Assembly (NCBI GenBank): GCA_014338185.1 | Contig: QUBV01000011.1 | Coordinates: forward strand, 1-60,175 | DNA: 60,175 nt | Direction: 5' to 3' | From: Lysobacterales bacterium | GTDB lineage: Bacteria; Pseudomonadota; Gammaproteobacteria; Xanthomonadales; Rhodanobacteraceae | Shown here: piece by piece, positions 6,550 through 18,991 of the stretch | How positions within the stretch are numbered: position 1 is the first letter of the stretch | Layout: every line of letters begins with the position of its first letter | Position numbers and translations under genes: made by a program | Notes under the pieces: generated by a model | Seen by the model: only the letters and a program-made list of their open reading frames with translations | What the model was told of the DNA's origin: nothing | Databases searched by the model: none

Positions 6550-7569
6550 CTAGCGCGTGAACAGCGTGGTGGCCAGCAGCTTGGCCTTGCGGCTGTGCTG
6601 CTCGGCTTCGGTGCGGGCCGCGCTGGGCTGGCGATGTACCTCGATGAGGCCGAGTGCGTCGTAGGCGTTGACCACGTCGAACACGTCGGCCATGTAGGCC
6701 TTGGCGCTCTTGGCGATCACGTGCAGCTGCGCCTCGCGCATCAGCGTCATCGCGATGCGGTGCTGCTTGCGGTAGTCGTTGTCCAGCGGCAGCCACTGCT
6801 TGAGACGGAAGTAACCGCCCGGATCGAGATGGCGGGCGAGCCAGCCGTTGGAGCGCAAGAACGCGCTGAGCCACAGCAAGCGGATCAGGGGTCGGCCCGC
6901 GTGTTCGCGCTGCAGTGCCGCGAGCTGGGCGCCGCCGACGCGCTGGTACTCGTTGCCCTTGAGCGGATCGAGGAAATACGGCTCCAGTTCCGACATGCGC
7001 GCACTGCTGTGGAACTGCTCGGTGACCGGATCCACCAGCAATGGTGCCAAGCCTGCGCGCTTGATCAGCAGGGCGCCGCGCTTGAGCAGCGGTTCCAGGC
7101 GCGTGCACGGACGCTCGTACTGGATGTCGAGGAAGTTCGCGCGCGCGGGATTGGCCTCGTCGCGCCGCGGCTGCACCACCGGGCGCGCGAGTTTCTCGAT
7201 CTGGCGTTCGTGCACGCTGAAGTCGGTGAGGCGGCGCGGCGCGGGCGGCGTGGTGGCGCCGACATGGTTGAACATGCCGACCACGGCCTTGGCCACCAGC
7301 GGCCGGTACAGCACGAGCTCGCTGTCGAGCACGTCGGCGCCGGGATCGGCGATCACGATCAGATGGCGTCCCTCGTCCAGCGCCCGGATGCGCGCGCAAC
7401 GGCCGCCGAACTCCGACAGGTCCGCGACCACCAGGTGGATGGCGTCGCCATCGCCCGCGACGGTCCATTCGTGGTCGAACTCGGCATGCAGCACGCGCAG
7501 GAAACTCGCGATCGCCGCGCTGTCGGCGGGCGGCGCACCAGCGACGACCAGATGTCTCGTCGTTTTCAT
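6550..7569 (-). CDS. conserved hypothetical protein, receiver-like N-terminus
   Basis: The 339-residue product starts MKTTRHLVVAGAPP. The first 120 residues alternate short hydrophobic strands (HLVVAG, AIHLVVADL, HLIVIADP) and helices like a receiver or Rossmann-like fold, but the phospho-acceptor pattern of a response regulator is not clear. The C-terminal third (WLSAFLRSNGWLARHLDP through VFDVVNAYDALGLIEV) has the look of a winged-helix module found in pilus- or gliding-associated signalling proteins of proteobacteria; this is a weak resemblance. The ATG at 7569 is preferred over upstream in-frame starts because the upstream residues are low-complexity Arg/Ser. It lies downstream of the kinase gene on the same strand after a 246-base gap. 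Confidence 0.65.
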   Translation of the reverse strand: MKTTRHLVVAGAPPADSAAIASFLRVLHAEFDHEWTVAGDGDAIHLVVADLSEFGGRCARIRALDEGRHLIVIADPGADVLDSELVLYRPLVAKAVVGMFNHVGATTPPAPRRLTDFSVHERQIEKLARPVVQPRRDEANPARANFLDIQYERPCTRLEPLLKRGALLIKRAGLAPLLVDPVTEQFHSSARMSELEPYFLDPLKGNEYQRVGGAQLAALQREHAGRPLIRLLWLSAFLRSNGWLARHLDPGGYFRLKQWLPLDNDYRKQHRIAMTLMREAQLHVIAKSAKAYMADVFDVVNAYDALGLIEVHRQPSAARTEAEQHSRKAKLLATTLFTR

Positions 7570-7815
7570 GGGCAGCGAGCGTTGGCGCGCCGAGGGCGCC
7601 GGGTCGGCCCGATTATGCTTGACTTGGCTGTCGCGTGAACATGAAAAATTGCCACTTGCGCGCAATCGCCGATGAACGGCGCGGGCCATCGCCCCGGCCG
7701 TGCGCTCGCATTGGCCCGGAGCGTGGCATGCCCGGCGCTGGGCGCCCCGGGCGGCGCGGAGCGGCTGGATGCGCAGGCATGCGCACTGGCTCTGGCGGGC
7801 CCGCGATCGCGCAGG

Positions 7816-10128
7816 TCAGTCGCCCGCGCGCAGCCGCTGCGCGCGCTCGCACAACTCCGGGTTGCCGCCTTCGCCGCAGGCGGACGCGGTCGCGGCGGCG
7901 ATGCGCGCGGCGGCATCGGCGGCCTTGCGTTGGCGGGCGATTTCCGCGCCCAGCACCTCGACCCGGATCCGCCGGTACGCGGCTGCGCCGTCCGGCGGCA
8001 GCGCGAGGATCGCATCGACGGTGGCCTGGGCCTGGTCCAGGCGGCCCAGTGCGAACTGCGTCTCGGCCAGGCGAAAGCGCCAGTAGCGGGTCATCGCGGC
8101 ATCGGCCCCGAACAGGCGGCTGAATTCGGCGATGGTCTCGCCCAGCAGCGGCGCGGCCTCGGCGTGGCGATCCAGGGTCTGCAGGGCGCGCGCGCGCACC
8201 GCGCGGGCGTGGGCGTGCAAGGCCGGCGGGACGTGGCGGTCGCCCAGCAGCGGATCGGCGAGTACCGCCTCGGCCAGTGCCAGCGCGCTGGCGCCGTCAC
8301 CCAGCGCCGCCTCGAGGTCGGCGAGGCTGACCTTGGCCAGCAGGAACTCGGCCGGGTGCTGCGCGCGCACCTGACCCCACGCGGCCACCGCCGCCTCGCC
8401 CGCCGCGCGCGCCTCGGGCTTGCGCCCGGTGGCGTACAGGATGCTGCCGCGCAACTCCTGCATCTTGGCCAGTTGCGCCCCCAGTTCCGACGGCGCGCCC
8501 GGTGCCTGCTGCAGGCGCGCGACGAGCGCGTCCAGTTCGGCCAGCGCGGGTTCCGGTTCGCCATCGATGAAGCGGAAATGGGCCAGGCGTCCACCCGCCT
8601 CGGCATCGATCGCCAGGCTGGGCGTGCGCGCGCGGCGATTGAACTGCAGCGCCTGCGCCAGCGCCTTGCGCGCGAGCTCGGTGTCGCCCAGCGACACGGC
8701 CGAGTTGCCGACCTGGGTCAGCAGTTCGGCCGCGACTTCCGGCTCGTCGGCGAGTTCGTGACCGGCGCGCTCGACCGCGGTGGCGAGGAAGTCACCGATG
8801 CGGGTGTCGGCGCCGCGCGCGACCGTCGGGTTGGCGTCGAGGAACACCGAATCCATGAAATCGCGCACCGCCTCGGATTGGCGCAGCGCCAGGCGCGCGC
8901 GCTGCGCCTCGGCGCTCTTCTCGGCGGCCTGCCACAGCGCGATGCCGCTGGCGCCGGCCAGCGCGACCAGGCCGAGCACGGCCACGGCGGCGGTGGCGCG
9001 ATGGCGCCGCAACAGCTTGGACATGCGGTAGGCGATGCTGTCGGGCCGGGCCTCGACCGGCTTGCCGTCGAGATGGCGCTGCACGTCGTCGGCCAGTTGC
9101 CGCGCATCGGCGTAGCGCCGCGCGGGCTCGTCGGCGAGCGCGCGCAGCGTGATCGCGTCGAGGTCGCCGCGCAGCTGCGCGCGCGTGATGGCGCCATCGC
9201 CGGGTAGGGTCATGGTCAGCGCCGCACTCGGGCGCAGCGTGGCCTCGCCGGCCGCGGCCAAGCGGCGATAGCGCTGGCCGGTGAGCAGTTCGAACAGGAT
9301 CAGGCCCAGCGCGTAGACATCGGCCGAAGTGCCTGCCGGCGCGCCCCGCAGCTGCTCGGGCGCGGCGAACTCGCGGCTGAGGAAGCGCTGTGCGGTCGCG
9401 GTGTGCTCGATTTCGCCCTGTTCGACCAGCGTGGCGATGCCGAAATCGAGCAGGCGCGGTTCGCCGTCGGCCTGTACCAGCACGTTGGCGGGCTTGAGGT
9501 CGCGATGCACGATCAACTGGCCGTGGGCGTAGGCGACGGCCCGGCACAGCTTGGTGAACAGTGCCAGGCGCGTGCGCAGATCGGGGGAGCTTTCCTGCAG
9601 CCAGGCGGCAAGGCCGATGCCGTCGACGTACTCCAGCGCAAACCAGGGCCGCCCGTGCGCATCCAGGCCGCCGTCGATGAGCTGGGCGATGTTGGGGTGC
9701 TGCAGACGCGCCAGCAGCGCGCGTTCACGGCGGAACTGGCGCTGGATGTGCTCGCCGTCCATGTCCATGCGGATCAGCTTGAGCGCGACCTGCTGCTGGA
9801 ACTGGCCGTCGTCGCGCTGCGCGAGCCACACCGAACCCATGCCGCCATGGCCGAGCTCGCGCACGAGGCGGTAGGGGCCGACGCGGCTGTCGGTGCACAG
9901 GCGTGCGCCCGCCGGCGGATCCGCGTCGATGAGCGCGGCGGCGTGTGCGGCGACCGGTCGGTCCAGTGGCAGCGCGGCGGCCGCATCCAGCGCGAGCAGG
10001 GCACGCAGGCGCGCCAGCAAGGTTTCGTCAGCGCCGCATTCGCGCGCCACGTAGTCGTCACGCTCGCCGGTCGGCAGGTCGAGCGCGGCGCGCAGGATGC
10101 GGGCGTGGCGTGGGTCGGGATCCGTCAT
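7816..10128 (-). CDS. Ser/Thr protein kinase with TPR-like C-terminus
   Basis: A 770-residue Hanks-type kinase. The glycine loop GHGGMGSV is at residues 93-100, catalytic lysine K117 in VALK, the HRDLKPAN loop at 208-215 with D210, DFG at 228-230 and APEQ at 256-259. All key residues are present, so it should be active. A transmembrane helix at about 378-400 places the kinase domain in the cytoplasm. The remaining 370 residues resemble degenerate TPR repeats in the periplasm. It is the second gene of a pair, 161 bases downstream of an ECF-type sigma factor on the same strand. No anti-sigma gene is present, so the kinase is the likely regulator of the sigma factor (inference). Confidence 0.9.
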   Translation of the reverse strand: MTDPDPRHARILRAALDLPTGERDDYVARECGADETLLARLRALLALDAAAALPLDRPVAAHAAALIDADPPAGARLCTDSRVGPYRLVRELGHGGMGSVWLAQRDDGQFQQQVALKLIRMDMDGEHIQRQFRRERALLARLQHPNIAQLIDGGLDAHGRPWFALEYVDGIGLAAWLQESSPDLRTRLALFTKLCRAVAYAHGQLIVHRDLKPANVLVQADGEPRLLDFGIATLVEQGEIEHTATAQRFLSREFAAPEQLRGAPAGTSADVYALGLILFELLTGQRYRRLAAAGEATLRPSAALTMTLPGDGAITRAQLRGDLDAITLRALADEPARRYADARQLADDVQRHLDGKPVEARPDSIAYRMSKLLRRHRATAAVAVLGLVALAGASGIALWQAAEKSAEAQRARLALRQSEAVRDFMDSVFLDANPTVARGADTRIGDFLATAVERAGHELADEPEVAAELLTQVGNSAVSLGDTELARKALAQALQFNRRARTPSLAIDAEAGGRLAHFRFIDGEPEPALAELDALVARLQQAPGAPSELGAQLAKMQELRGSILYATGRKPEARAAGEAAVAAWGQVRAQHPAEFLLAKVSLADLEAALGDGASALALAEAVLADPLLGDRHVPPALHAHARAVRARALQTLDRHAEAAPLLGETIAEFSRLFGADAAMTRYWRFRLAETQFALGRLDQAQATVDAILALPPDGAAAYRRIRVEVLGAEIARQRKAADAAARIAAATASACGEGGNPELCERAQRLRAGD

Positions 10129-10289
10129 CGCGGATGGCTTCCGGCACCGCGCCGCAGCCGCGCCGCACTGTACTCAGCGTCGGATTGCATGCTGCAGACT
10201 GGGCGCCCCGCGCGCGATCATGAGACGGTCAGGGTAGGTACAAAACACCGTCACCGCAAACACGTGTGGCGGCGCGGGCGCTGCGCGTG

Positions 10290-10868
10290 TCAGCCCGGCC
10301 CGGACCCGGGTGCCGTCGGTTCGGACAGGGCCAGTTGCAGCAGCGCGCGCGCCGCGCGCCAGTCGCGTCCGATGGTGCGTTCGGACAGGTCCATGAGCCG
10401 CGCGATCTCGGCGAACTCCGAGCCGGCGTAGAAATGCAGTTCCACCACCTGGGCCAGGCGCGGTTCGCTCGCGGCCAGTCGCTCAAGCGCCTGGTCGAGC
10501 GCGACGAGGTCGAGTTCGCGATCGGGAGCGACGAGGCCGGTGTCGAGCGTCAACGCCTCGCGGCCATCGCCGCGCTTGCGCGCGTTGCGGCGCCGGCTGG
10601 CGTCGATCAGCACGCGCCGCATCGCGCGCGCGGCGATGCGAAAGAAGTGCGCACGGTCGTTGAGTGCGAGTTGCGCGCCGGCCAGGCTCAGGAAGGTTTC
10701 ATGCACCAGTGCCGTGGTCGACAGCGTGTCCGCGCCGTCGCCGCGCCAGCGCCGCGCGCGGCGTCGCAGGTCGGCATAGACCCGTTCGAACAGTGCGCCG
10801 TAGGCGTCCTGGTCGCCGCTGGAACAGCGCTGCAGCAAGGCTGCCGTGTCGTGCACCGGGGAGGGCAT
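10290..10868 (-). CDS. ECF-type RNA polymerase sigma factor (kinase-linked group)
   Basis: A 192-residue sigma factor with region 2 at about residues 10-85 and region 4 at about 120-185, whose helix-turn-helix reads LSERTIGRDWRAARALL. It belongs to the sigma-70 group usually found beside Ser/Thr kinases (TIGR02999-like). Where most ECF factors carry the acidic core-binding motif DAED before the conserved LVQETFL-like helix, this one has STTA at residues 50-53 followed by LVHETFL. The ATG at 10868 was chosen over an in-frame TTG 48 bases upstream. It is first in a pair with the kinase gene. Confidence 0.88.
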   Translation of the reverse strand: MPSPVHDTAALLQRCSSGDQDAYGALFERVYADLRRRARRWRGDGADTLSTTALVHETFLSLAGAQLALNDRAHFFRIAARAMRRVLIDASRRRNARKRGDGREALTLDTGLVAPDRELDLVALDQALERLAASEPRLAQVVELHFYAGSEFAEIARLMDLSERTIGRDWRAARALLQLALSEPTAPGSGPG

Positions 10869-14147: not shown

Positions 14148-14714
14148 GTGGCTTCGGCGAGCGTTGAGGTGACCAGGCTGCTCAATGCCTGGAGCAGTGG
14201 CGACGAAGCCGCGCTCGCGCAGCTCACCGAGCGCGTCTATGACGAATTGCATCGCATGGCGCACCGCCACATGCGCAACGAGCGCTGGGCCGACACCCTG
14301 CAGACCACCGCGCTGCTCAACGAGGCTTACCTGCGCCTCATCGGCACCGCCGCGATCCAGTGGCGCGACCGCGCGCAGTTCTTCGCGCTGGCCGCGCAGG
14401 TGATGCGGCGCATCCTCGTCGATGCGGCGCGTGCGCGTGCGGCCGACAAGCGCCCCGGCCGGACCGTGCACGTGGCGCTGGATGAGGCCGCGGTGGTGTC
14501 GGACACGCCCGACGCGTTCCTGCCCGCGCTCGACGATGCACTCACCGCATTCGCGCGGATTGCGCCACGCCAGGCCAAGGTGGTCGAGCTGCGTTATTTC
14601 GGCGGCCTCACCGAGGAGGAGGTCGCGAGCACGCTGGAGGTCGCACCGCGCACGGTACGGCGCGACTGGGAATTGGCCAGGGCCTGGTTGTTGCGCGAGC
14701 TCGATCCGGCCTAG
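14148..14714 (+). CDS. ECF-type RNA polymerase sigma factor (kinase-linked group), second copy
   Basis: A 188-residue paralogue of the sigma factor at 10.3-10.9 kb. Region 2 contains YDELHRMAHRHMRNERWADT, then QTTA at residues 52-55 where ordinary ECF factors have DAED, followed by LLNEAYLRL. Region 4 ends with the helix-turn-helix VAPRTVRRDWELARAWLL. The GTG start at 14148 is preceded by a GGCAGGGTGG Shine-Dalgarno-like stretch; the reading frame stays open upstream but those residues are antisense to the esterase gene. The kinase gene begins 16 bases after the stop, so the two are surely cotranscribed. Confidence 0.87.
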   Translation: MASASVEVTRLLNAWSSGDEAALAQLTERVYDELHRMAHRHMRNERWADTLQTTALLNEAYLRLIGTAAIQWRDRAQFFALAAQVMRRILVDAARARAADKRPGRTVHVALDEAAVVSDTPDAFLPALDDALTAFARIAPRQAKVVELRYFGGLTEEEVASTLEVAPRTVRRDWELARAWLLRELDPA

Positions 14715-14730
14715 GACGATCGCCTCGCCG

Positions 14731-17640
14731 ATGGATGTCGAGCGCTTCCAGCAGATCGCCGAGCTCTACCACGCCGCGCGCGAGGCCAGCGCCGATGCGC
14801 GTGCGGCGCTGCTGGCGGCGGCCGCGCCGGAATTGCGTGGCGAGGTGGAATCACTGCTGGCCCGCTCCGGCGACGACACCTTCCTGCAGCAGCCGTTGGT
14901 GGCGAGCGCCGCCACGCTGCTGATCGAGGCGCCCGCGTCGAAGCTCGTGGTGGGCACGCTGCTGGGGCCGTATCGCATCGAGGAGCGGATTGGCGAAGGC
15001 GGCATGGGCCAGGTGTATCGCGCGATCGACACCCGGCTCGGGCGCGCGGTCGCGATCAAGGTCGCGCACGCGCGGTTCGACACGCGCTGCCAGCGCGAGG
15101 CGCGCCTGGTTTCGGCACTCAACCATCCGGGCATCTGTGCGCTGTACGACGTCGGTCCCGACTACCTGGTGATGGAACTGATCGAGGGCTGCACGCTCGC
15201 AGCGCACCTGGCGCGTGGCCCGTTGCCGCGCGCCACCGCGTTGGCCTGGGCCGCCCAGATCCTCGCCGCACTCGCCCACGCCCATGATCACGGCATCGTC
15301 CATCGCGACCTCAAGCCGCGCAACATCATGGTGGTCGATGGTCGCATCAAGATCCTCGACTTCGGCCTGGCGCGCTCGGCCGACGGCGACAGCAGTGCCC
15401 TGGGTGGCACCGCGATGGGCACGCCCGGATACGCCGCGCCCGAACAGCACGCCGGGCTCGCCACCGATGCGCGCGCGGACATCTATTCATTCGGCTGCGT
15501 GCTGTACGAGATGATCAGCGGTGAGCGCGTGGGCGCGCAGCGCCAACGCCTGCAGCCGCGCCGGCTCGACACCCTCATCGCCGGTTGCCTGCAGGCCGAT
15601 CCCGCGCGGCGCTGGTCATCGGTGGCGGACGTGCAGCAGCAACTCGACGCGCTGTCGGCGACGCGGCGCGGGTTCGGCACGGCCGTGGTGGTACCGCGCG
15701 GCCCGAAGCGCACGCGCCTCGCACTGGCCGGCGGTGCGGCGGCGGTCATCGCCCTGGCTGCGGGAGGGTGGTTGACACGCCCCGCGCGCACGTTGACCGA
15801 CAAGGACACCATCGTGCTCGCCGACTTCGACAACCGCACCGGCGAGGCGGTATTCGACGGCAGCCTGCGCCAGGCGCTGTCGGTGCACCTGGAGCAGTCG
15901 CCGTTCCTGAGCATCGTGGGCGAGGCGCGCGTGCAGCAGACGCTCGCACTGATGGGCCACGCAGGCGCAGCGGGCGTGACCTCGCCGCTCGCGCTCGAAC
16001 TGTGCCAACGGCTGGGCAGTGCCGCCGTGGTGCAGGGGTCGATCGTGCAGGTTGGCGCGCCCTATCAGCTCACGCTGCGTGCCCTCGACTGCGCGAGCGG
16101 ACAGGCGCTCGCGAGCAGCCAGGCGCACGCCGCCGACAAGAGCCACGTGCTGGAGGCGCTCGGCATCGCGACCTCGCAACTGCGCGCGCGGCTGGGCGAG
16201 TCGCTGGGCACGGTGCAGCGCTTCGACACGCCATTGGAACAGGCCACCACCACCTCGCTCGATGCGCTCAAGTCCTACAGCGAGGGGATGCGGCTCATGG
16301 CCACGGGTGGCGATGCCAACGCGGCCATCGCGCTGTTCACGCGCGCAACCACGCTCGATGCCGATTTCGCGCTGGCCCATGGCGCGCTCACGATCGCCTA
16401 CACCAACCTCGGCGAGTCCCGGCTTGCGGCCGAGTCCGCGCGCCGCGCCTACGCCCTGCGCGAGCACGTGAGCGAGCCCGAGAAGTATTTCATCAGCGCG
16501 CGTTACGCCAAGTCGGCCACGGGTGACATCGACGCGGCCGTGGCGGCGTGCCATGCGTGGATCCAGGCCTATCCGCGCACTCCGATCCCGCATCTGCTGC
16601 TGGCCGGCTCGATCTATCCGGTGATCGGCGAGTTCGACAAGGCCCTAGCCGAGGGCCGGCAGGCGATACGGCTCGCGCCGACCTCGGCGATGGGCTACGT
16701 GGTCGTGCGCAATGCCTATCTCACACTCAATCGCCTGGCCGAGGCGCAGGCGGTGCAGGCGCAGGCCGCTGCGCTGCAGTTGCACTCGGGCTTCGATGCG
16801 CTGGACCTGTATGCGATCGCGTTCCTGCAGCACGACCAGGGCGCGATGGAGCGGCTGGTCGCGGCCGCGCGCGGCCAGGGCGACATCGAGCATCAGCTGC
16901 TGGCCCTGAGCGCCGAGACCGCGGCGTACCAGGGCCACCTGCTGCAGGCGCGCAGCCTGTCCGACCAGGCCGCCGACCTCGCCCAGCGTGCCGGTGAGCG
17001 CGAGCCGCGCGCGACCTACCTGGCCATGTCGGCGCTGCGTGAAGCACTGCTGGGTGATCGCGAGGAAGCCGTGCGCCGCGTCGGCTGGGCGCTGCAGCAA
17101 CCGCCTGCGCGCGATGTGCTGTTCGGGGCCGCCCTGGCGCTGGCCTATGCCGGCGAGGCCGCGCCTGCGCGTGCGCTCGCCGGACAGTTGGCGGAGCAGT
17201 ATCCGCAGGACACTCTGGTGCAGTTCAATTACCTGCCGGCGTTGCGCGCCAAGCTGTTGCTCGCGGATGGCGATGCGGACGCGGCGCTGGAGGTGCTGCG
17301 TGATGCCAGTGCCTACGAGCTGGGCGTCACCCGCGCCGGCGTATGGGGCTGGACCGCGCTGCTGCCGGTGTACGTACGCGGCGAGGCCTGGCTCGCCGCG
17401 CACGAGGGCCACCAGGCGGCCGCGCAGTTCCGCCGGATCCTCGACCACCCGGGCATCGCCCTCAACTTCCCGGTGGCGCTGCTGGCGCGCCTGCAACTCG
17501 CGCGTGCGCTGCGGATGTCCGGTGCCGACGCCGCAGCCGATGGCGCCTACCGCGACTTCCTGCACCTGTGGCGCGATGCCGACGCCGGGACCGCGCTGCT
17601 CGCGCAGGTCAGGACCGAGGCCGCCACGCGTGCGCGCTGA
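14731..17640 (+). CDS. Ser/Thr protein kinase with TPR C-terminus, second copy
   Basis: A 969-residue membrane kinase: glycine loop GEGGMGQV at residues 88-95, K110 in VAIK, HRDLKPRN at 191-198, DFG at 210-212, activation segment with GTAMGTPGYAAPEQ ending at 239. All catalytic residues are intact. A membrane helix lies near 329-347. After it comes a domain starting DTIVLADFDNRTGEAVFD that is typical of kinase-TPR proteins, then about ten TPR-like helical pairs to the C-terminus. It follows the second sigma factor by 16 bases. The 90 residues before the kinase domain match the first kinase in style (helical, ending in a Leu-rich stretch), supporting common descent of the two modules. Confidence 0.9.
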   Translation: MDVERFQQIAELYHAAREASADARAALLAAAAPELRGEVESLLARSGDDTFLQQPLVASAATLLIEAPASKLVVGTLLGPYRIEERIGEGGMGQVYRAIDTRLGRAVAIKVAHARFDTRCQREARLVSALNHPGICALYDVGPDYLVMELIEGCTLAAHLARGPLPRATALAWAAQILAALAHAHDHGIVHRDLKPRNIMVVDGRIKILDFGLARSADGDSSALGGTAMGTPGYAAPEQHAGLATDARADIYSFGCVLYEMISGERVGAQRQRLQPRRLDTLIAGCLQADPARRWSSVADVQQQLDALSATRRGFGTAVVVPRGPKRTRLALAGGAAAVIALAAGGWLTRPARTLTDKDTIVLADFDNRTGEAVFDGSLRQALSVHLEQSPFLSIVGEARVQQTLALMGHAGAAGVTSPLALELCQRLGSAAVVQGSIVQVGAPYQLTLRALDCASGQALASSQAHAADKSHVLEALGIATSQLRARLGESLGTVQRFDTPLEQATTTSLDALKSYSEGMRLMATGGDANAAIALFTRATTLDADFALAHGALTIAYTNLGESRLAAESARRAYALREHVSEPEKYFISARYAKSATGDIDAAVAACHAWIQAYPRTPIPHLLLAGSIYPVIGEFDKALAEGRQAIRLAPTSAMGYVVVRNAYLTLNRLAEAQAVQAQAAALQLHSGFDALDLYAIAFLQHDQGAMERLVAAARGQGDIEHQLLALSAETAAYQGHLLQARSLSDQAADLAQRAGEREPRATYLAMSALREALLGDREEAVRRVGWALQQPPARDVLFGAALALAYAGEAAPARALAGQLAEQYPQDTLVQFNYLPALRAKLLLADGDADAALEVLRDASAYELGVTRAGVWGWTALLPVYVRGEAWLAAHEGHQAAAQFRRILDHPGIALNFPVALLARLQLARALRMSGADAAADGAYRDFLHLWRDADAGTALLAQVRTEAATRAR

Positions 17641-17812
17641 GCGTGGGTGACGCCCAGGCCCGCGCCTGCACCTGCGCGCGCATCCCTCGCGCGCGCCGGA
17701 CTCCACTGCCGCCATGGCCTGTCCGAGCGGTCGCGGTGATCGCGGCGCAGCCGCGCCGGGGGCGAGGCCGCGCTTGCTAGACTGGCGCGCCGCCGCGCCC
17801 CGAGGATTGCCG

Positions 17813-18991
17813 ATGACCGCGCCCGACCTGTTGCTGCTGCGCAATGCGCTGGTGTATGCGCCCGCGCCGATGGGCCATTGCCAGTTGCTGCTCGGTGGCG
17901 GGCGCATCCTGTGGCTGGGCACCGCTGCCCTCGACCTGCCCGCGGCACTGGGCGCGCAGGTGCTCGACCTGCAGGGCCGCCGCCTCATTCCCGGCCTCAT
18001 CGATGGCCATGTGCACGTGACCGGCGGTGGCGGCGAAGCCGGCTTCCGCTCACGGGTGCCGCCGCCGGCGCCCTCGCGCTTCACCCGCGCGGGCGTCACC
18101 AGCGTGGTCGGCCTGCTCGGCACCGACGATGTGGTGCGCACGCCGCGCGAACTGCTGGCGCAGGTGTATGCGCTGCGCGAGGAAGGGCTCAGCGCCTGGG
18201 CCCACGTTGGCGGCTACCACCTGCCGCCGGCCACGCTCACGGGCAGCCTGCGCACCGACCTCACGCTGGTCGAGGCCCTGATCGGCGTGGGTGAAGTCGC
18301 GATCAGCGACCATCGTTCGAGCCAGCCCGGTTTCGCCGAGCTCATGCGCGTGGCGGCCGATGCGCACGTGGCCGGGCTCATGACCGGCAAGGCCGGCATC
18401 GTGCACCTGCATCTGGGCGACGGCGCGCGCGGCCTGGAACTGGTGCGCCGCGCGCTGGCCGAGACCGAACTGCCGCCGCGCACGTTCCAGCCCACCCACG
18501 TCAACCGGCGCAAGGCGCTGTTCGACGAGGCGCTGGAGCTCGCGCGCCGCGGCGTGACCATCGACGTCACCGCGTTTCCGGTCGAGGAGGGCGAGGATGC
18601 GTGGGACGCGGCCGATGCGTTCGTGCGCTTTCACGATGCCGGCGTGCCGGCCGCGCAGCTCACCATCAGTTCCGACGCGGGCGGCTCGCTGCCGTGTTTC
18701 GACGACGAGGGCTGCGTCGTGCACATGGAAGTGGGCGAGTCGGGCGCGCTGCTGGCCACCGTGCGCGCGCTGCTCGCACGCGGCGTGGTGCTGGAACAGG
18801 CACTGGCACCGGTCACGAGCAATCCAGCGCGGCTGTTGCGCCTGCCGGGCAAGGGCCATATCGCGGTCGGCGCCGATGCCGACCTCGTCGTGCTCGGGGA
18901 CGACGGCAGCGTGGATGCGACGATCGCGCGCGGGCAGGTGCATGTGCGCGAAGGGCGGGTGCTGCGCCGCGGCCTGTTCGAGGTGGGGTGA
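17813..18991 (+). CDS. iadA: isoaspartyl (beta-aspartyl) dipeptidase IadA
   Basis: An amidohydrolase that cleaves beta-aspartyl dipeptides; beside cyanophycin genes its natural substrate is likely beta-Asp-Arg. In 392 residues the metal ligands are visible: H66 and H68 in HVHVTGGGGE, E75, H200 in HLHLGDG, H229 in PTHVNR and D288 in SSDAGG. The position of the carboxylated lysine of the E. coli enzyme (GVKCAISDHRS) reads GVGEVAISDHRS here, so a glutamate (about E161) appears to take the bridging role. The ATG at 17813 gives the usual N-terminus. Cyanophycinase follows 73 bases downstream. The call is strong; the ligand swap is by-eye alignment against remembered E. coli sequence. Confidence 0.92.
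   Translation: MTAPDLLLLRNALVYAPAPMGHCQLLLGGGRILWLGTAALDLPAALGAQVLDLQGRRLIPGLIDGHVHVTGGGGEAGFRSRVPPPAPSRFTRAGVTSVVGLLGTDDVVRTPRELLAQVYALREEGLSAWAHVGGYHLPPATLTGSLRTDLTLVEALIGVGEVAISDHRSSQPGFAELMRVAADAHVAGLMTGKAGIVHLHLGDGARGLELVRRALAETELPPRTFQPTHVNRRKALFDEALELARRGVTIDVTAFPVEEGEDAWDAADAFVRFHDAGVPAAQLTISSDAGGSLPCFDDEGCVVHMEVGESGALLATVRALLARGVVLEQALAPVTSNPARLLRLPGKGHIAVGADADLVVLGDDGSVDATIARGQVHVREGRVLRRGLFEVG

Follow-up and report, generated by a model that had tools for sequence, protein, structure and literature searches.

According to PMC8999054, members of the ECF43 group of sigma factors depend on a kinase for their activation and not on release from an anti-sigma factor, and a Hanks-type kinase gene beside the sigma factor gene is called a hallmark of the group in PMC13147305. 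Two described systems are closest to the case considered here. In EcfP of Vibrio parahaemolyticus, an ECF43 member, STTA replaces DAED and the second threonine of this motif is phosphorylated by the kinase PknT (PMC8999054), an account repeated in PMC8103513, and this is the one phosphosite reported for the protein. An earlier note on the DNA considered here had named the EcfP kinase PpkA2, while both of these papers use PknT. In the second system, from Xanthomonas citri, PknS phosphorylates EcfK at T51 and at T104, T106, S108 and S110 of the linker; a T51A variant still works, a T51A/T106A variant does not, and either T51 or T106 suffices (PMC13147305). Besides its kinase domain, PknS is described as having a membrane segment and TPRs located in the periplasm (PMC13147305), and EcfK controls a T6SS (PMC6653060). 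The phosphorylated threonine is reportedly kept in 88% of ECF43 members, with QTTA as the consensus motif (PMC13147305), implying that some members lack it.

The sigma factor gene and its adjacent kinase gene

The window, a stretch of 60,175 nucleotides of Lysobacterales DNA, harbors at 10290..10868 on the reverse strand a gene for an ECF sigma factor of the TIGR02999/PF07638 (ECF43-type) family. The translated protein product of 192 amino acids consists of a sigma2 domain (approximately residues 10-100), a linker (approximately 101-120) and a sigma4 domain (approximately 121-182), and scores above the curated cut-offs of both family models (TIGR02999: 168.8 bits, cut-off 126.15; PF07638: 138 bits, cut-off 21.1). 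We take TIGR02999 to correspond to ECF43, a link supported by the alignment to an EcfK homologue presented below. The gene starts with ATG, with a TTG extension of the frame open to 10916, and the best orthologues (L022 and L051) align with the predicted protein starting at residue 1. The motif region reads DTLS50-T51-T52-A53-LVHETFL, with the codons for S50 to A53 at 10710..10721 of the reverse strand and that for T52, the predicted phospho-acceptor, at 10713-10715. Translation and alignment therefore bear out the earlier observation that region 2.2 carries STTA-LVHETFL instead of an acidic motif. Uncharged residues replacing DxxD, in a QTTA-like motif with the conserved threonine, are a feature of ECF43, and the protein departs from the canonical ECF factors paired with an anti-sigma factor, as STTA is not acidic and no known anti-sigma family was recognised among the 15 window proteins scanned. 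STTALVHE is identical in all nine orthologues, comprising the window protein and eight same-genus proteins with 81 to 58% amino acid identity to it, and its persistence down to 58% identity indicates that the motif is not due to chance. The closest named relatives, from metagenome assemblies of Dokdonella sp., a Rhodanobacteraceae bacterium and a Lysobacterales bacterium, are at most 82% identical, in a search from which the protein's own record was possibly absent. Within the known ECF43-type group, the sigma factor is unremarkable.

An AlphaFold2 model of the sigma factor (78 aligned sequences; mean pLDDT: 82.5) contains a helix at residues 51-63, and both this model and the alignment place the threonine pair inside region 2.2, as previously proposed, where it would open the region 2.2 helix. 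Residues 104-116 have a pLDDT below 50, suggesting that T107 lies in a flexible linker. The top Foldseek matches of the model are ECF sigma factors (best e-value: 4.8e-3), with none reaching an e-value of 0.001, so that the structure search contributes little past the fold. Sequence matches in the PDB are likewise weak (best: 6dxo_A; e-value: 0.0059).

A complete Hanks-type Ser/Thr kinase gene follows the sigma factor gene, as the earlier note had stated. This intact open reading frame, located at 7816..10128 on the reverse strand, encodes a 770 amino acid protein comprising an N-terminal segment, a kinase domain at approximately residues 86-360 (Pkinase; e-value: 9.2e-40), a hydrophobic, putatively membrane-spanning segment at approximately 380-399, judged by eye from the sequence, and C-terminal TPR matches, one of which is above the cut-off. 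All of the catalytic motifs are present (LGHGGMGSV, VALKL, HRDLKPAN, DFG and APE), giving the G-loop, VAxK, HRDxKxxN, DFG and APE elements of a Hanks-type receptor kinase. The closest solved structure is 9EED (residues 11-354; e-value: 7.6e-47), which is given as PknS of Xanthomonas citri in PMC13147305. The kinase gene is located 161 nt downstream of the sigma factor gene, and the two genes are also adjacent in 8/8 orthologous loci, in line with the hallmark of ECF43. The gap itself (10129-10289) is missing in all eight, where the two genes overlap or abut, with the starts judged by eye.

A gene for a CorA-like transporter (PF01544; 10972..12126, reverse strand) lies upstream of the sigma factor gene on the same strand and is found beside it in five of the eight orthologous loci. 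Downstream, an uncharacterised open reading frame (6550-7689), for which no Pfam match was obtained, occurs near the sigma factor gene in three of the eight. Alignment of the upstream regions, judged by eye, revealed no promoter motif shared among the orthologues, and no T6SS genes were observed among the 15 window proteins scanned. A Pfam scan of the same 15 proteins likewise recognised no known anti-sigma family. This fits the claim that no anti-sigma factor is needed, while falling short of proof. The opposing explanation, that an unlinked or unrecognised anti-sigma factor holds the sigma factor and is itself modulated by the kinase, could draw on the uncharacterised open reading frame and its recurrence near orthologous sigma factor genes. 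Given the outcome of the Pfam scan, and that ECF43 members are reported in PMC8999054 as kinase-activated and not anti-sigma-released, we consider it very improbable.

Conservation of the region 2.2 and linker threonines

A comparison set of 159 distinct TIGR02999-like sigma factors was compiled from the window, 20 named loci, 17 stretches of the same genome and 120 stretches of related genomes, leaving out seven duplicate sequences and one 32-bit match. The column of T52 holds threonine in 157 of these proteins, serine in one and alanine in one, whereas that of T51 is varied (Thr: 85; Pro: 41; Ala: 29; Ser: 3; Asn: 1). As the set is not random and was picked largely by similarity to the window protein, 157/159 should not be read as an unbiased rate. 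T52 is nevertheless the conserved residue of the pair, and threonine at this position is a signature of the family and no local oddity.

An EcfK homologue was fetched from a genome of the same order, and 11/11 checked residues agree with the numbering in PMC13147305. It shares 36% identity with the window protein over 163 aligned residues, and its T51 aligns with T52 in three MAFFT modes. The analogy with EcfP drawn in the earlier note thus proves to be close, in that EcfP is described as reading STTA and T52 aligns with T51 of the EcfK homologue, the residue phosphorylated in EcfK. The earlier designation of T51 or T52 as the switch can accordingly be narrowed: T52 is favoured and T51 disfavoured, and on the alignments the phospho-acceptor is most likely T52. 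T51 does adjoin T52 and is itself threonine in 9/9 orthologues, as might be expected if it, or either one of the two, were the acceptor. With proline or alanine in 70 of the 159 proteins, and with the reported acceptors of both EcfP (the second threonine) and EcfK (T51) corresponding to T52, we give this reading little credence.

For contrast, 22 sigma-like proteins of other types (below 70 bits) were taken from the same and related genomes, eight of which were gapped in the motif and dropped. All 14 gap-free proteins contain an acid within positions 50-53, at position 53 in ten cases, and position 52 is occupied by Asp (6), Thr (3), Glu (2), Ala (1), Arg (1) or Gln (1). Among the 159 ECF43-type sigma factors, any acid at positions 50-53 is found in 36, and acids at both 50 and 53 in two.

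The earlier note overlooked T107 (codon at 10548..10550, reverse strand), a residue of the linker between sigma2 and sigma4 that is probably a further switch. T107 aligns with T106 of the EcfK homologue, the second EcfK switch, in the three MAFFT modes, and BLASTP is also ungapped there, while EcfK S108 corresponds to D109. The alignments would therefore have the window protein carry both EcfK switch sites, T52 corresponding to T51 and T107 to T106, and on this basis a two-site switch is likely. By analogy with the functional T51A form of EcfK, T52 may not be essential alone. The linker position is serine or threonine in 85/159 sigma factors, and Ser, Thr, Asp or Glu in 115 or 116/159, depending on the alignment mode (approximately 73%), which is close to the 76.9% given for position 106 in PMC13147305.

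It could instead be argued that T52 alone matters, as in the switch described for EcfP with its one reported phosphosite, and that T107 is incidental. Serine or threonine at the linker position in just 85 of the 159 proteins would accord with this, as would one of the orthologues (L144), in which the linker residue is alanine and STTA is intact. Against it, T107 aligns with EcfK T106 and is threonine in eight of the nine orthologues (seven of the eight besides the window protein). We regard a switch at T52 alone as a possibility of some substance, if a doubtful one, and return to it below with relatives that lack the T52 equivalent.

Sigma-kinase pairing and relatives without the acceptor threonine

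Sigma factors were scored as paired when a kinase domain was encoded on the same strand, no more than 2 kb downstream of the sigma domain. By this rule 117/159 are kinase-paired, and the distance matrices of sigma factors and kinases correlate over these 117 pairs (r = 0.60). When partners were swapped within genomes (1000 trials; 87/117 pairs swappable, in 22 genomes), the mean r was 0.30 and the maximum 0.41, indicating that sigma factor and kinase tend to travel as pairs. Threonine occupies the T52 column in 115/117 paired and 42/42 unpaired sigma factors. Among the 42 unpaired, some lie on truncated contigs, others have a kinase that is more distant, precedes the sigma factor gene or is encoded on the opposite strand, and one (L119) lies beside T6SS genes. 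Four cases (L127, L147, L175 and L201) are probably due to contig ends, while for several others (e.g. L185, L194 and L122) a kinase was not found within approximately 6 kb on either side. Retention of the threonine in all 42 shows its conservation to be independent of kinase adjacency, and it could partly be structural. A comparison of kinase adjacency with threonine loss within the 159 proteins was set aside, as useful variation is absent and the set thus cannot show that the threonine needs the kinase.

Four sigma factors from genomes of the same family (L119, L121, L122 and L125) read RTLSATALVNE. L119 adjoins TssB/TssC/Hcp-like genes of a T6SS, recognised by eye. Kinases are encoded approximately 27-30 kb off on the same contig for L119 (genome G020) and L125 (G018), and the only kinase match in the genome of L122 (G034) is on another contig.

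The sole alanine in the T52 column of the comparison set belongs to L123. A search of the genus of this sigma factor (g34), which belongs to the same order, yielded matches in 61 of 91 genomes, and 30 loci among the matches listed were read. In these 30 loci, the motif is QPAA in 15 genomes (L299-L313, L299 and L123 being one gene) and QTAA in one (L314), neither motif containing an acidic residue. A kinase open reading frame follows the sigma factor gene in 16/16 of these genomes, and the linker, which reads LTLS, keeps its threonine in 16/16. Their kinases contain HCDLKP, with the catalytic Asp kept, and DFG. Of the remaining loci read, 11 (L317-L327) keep both threonines and the kinase, and L328 is a more distant member. 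In two further genomes (L315 and L316), the acceptor position is valine, and the kinase model found no match in 16 kb around the sigma factor gene (stretches L329 and L330), even at an e-value of 10, while kinases are present elsewhere in both genomes. The adjacent kinase and the threonine were apparently lost together in these two relatives. The alanine replacement in the 16 genomes probably represents one or two evolutionary events, and not 16.

Threonine 52 might be conserved because it serves a structural role, for instance in opening the region 2.2 helix, with the kinase acting elsewhere, for instance on the linker or another partner. Its presence in all 42 unpaired sigma factors, its modelled position at the start of helix 51-63, and the clade that lacks the threonine and still keeps kinase and linker threonine are compatible with such a role. 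However, the varied residues at this position in the 14 gap-free proteins of other types indicate that the fold does not need threonine, the equivalent positions of EcfP and EcfK are reported as phosphorylated, and L315 and L316 are without both the adjacent kinase and the threonine. We therefore consider a purely structural threonine improbable, and retain T52 as the most likely acceptor.

The alanine clade fits the finding that the linker site of EcfK can suffice, by analogy, and cautions against assuming that the switch must be T52 by itself. In the 30 loci read, the linker threonine is the site retained in all 16 genomes without a T52 equivalent, which also weighs against a switch at T52 alone. 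We tentatively suggest that T52 and T107 form a two-site switch whose sites are evolutionarily exchangeable. The alanine clade would then be an ECF43 switch that in nature works through the linker only, and the two-site state would be represented by the window protein; this fuller scheme is plausible, though we would not yet call it probable. What is new beyond the published 88% is the retention of kinase and linker threonine in an ECF43 clade without the region 2.2 threonine. No description of such a clade was found in the portions of the literature on this sigma factor group that were searched. Relatives with a natural alanine at the acceptor position make the question of one site versus two testable.

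Parallel pairs, proposed mechanism and comparison with known systems

The 3.2-Mb genome to which the window belongs contains 20 matches to PF07638, of which 16 score above 100 bits, and 26 Pkinase matches, 25 of which are over the cut-off. All 16 ECF43-type sigma factors have threonine in the T52 column, and in 15/16 a kinase is encoded downstream within 2 kb, the exception (L075) having its kinase upstream on the same strand. A second of these pairs also lies in the window, 3.3 kb from the first pair and on the opposite strand (14148-17640). Its sigma factor (14148..14714, forward strand; 188 amino acids; TIGR02999: 217.6 bits) is 44% identical to that at 10290-10868 and has a QTTA motif, with alanine at the linker position. 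A Hanks-type kinase gene (14731..17640, forward strand; 969 amino acids; Pkinase: 154 bits) follows directly, with intact HRDLKPRN, DFG and APE motifs. The presence of 16 such sigma factor genes, 15 of them kinase-paired, in one genome makes insulation between parallel kinase-sigma channels testable.

Two further loci of the same genome differ from these pairs. L017 (G000:C5, approximately 17611-17892) is a shortened, degenerate sigma-like open reading frame with a 174 amino acid open frame, in which region 4 is mostly unmatched and region 2.2 reads EATAAAPE; a kinase gene comes next, at C5:18318. L019 (G000:C1:13742-14230) encodes a sigma factor that does not belong to ECF43 and whose motif, DTDD, is acidic; it is directly followed by a kinase gene (C1:14482), and is a kinase-linked ECF factor of another type.

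On the basis of these comparisons, we consider it highly probable that the product of 10290-10868 is a kinase-switched sigma factor, turned on when the kinase encoded at 7816-10128 phosphorylates T52 and, probably, T107. With a region 2.2 devoid of acids (STTA, and not a DAED-like motif), the sigma factor would by itself bind core RNA polymerase poorly. The membrane kinase is envisaged to sense an envelope signal, its TPR-containing C-terminal part being extracytoplasmic if its architecture is that of PknS, and would phosphorylate T52, and probably also T107 in the sigma2-sigma4 linker. The phosphate would supply negative charge contacting the beta' subunit, and the regulon would thereby be switched on.

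The window contributes one well-formed pair, and a second pair, to the known group of phosphorylation-activated sigma factors. With respect to the TIGR02999 (Sig-70_X6) and PF07638 (Sigma70_ECF) families, the sigma factor exceeds both curated cut-offs and no difference was found. It resembles EcfP, which was compared by its published description, in the STTA motif, the partner Hanks-type kinase and the absence of an acidic motif, and differs in that EcfP has one reported phosphosite, whereas an EcfK-like linker threonine is added here. EcfK, in contrast, retains one acid in its QATE motif where STTA has none, and runs a T6SS, whereas the 15 window proteins scanned are without a T6SS gene. The likeness to EcfK/PknS lies in the alignment of T51 and T106 of the EcfK homologue with T52 and T107, and in PknS being the nearest solved structure to the kinase.
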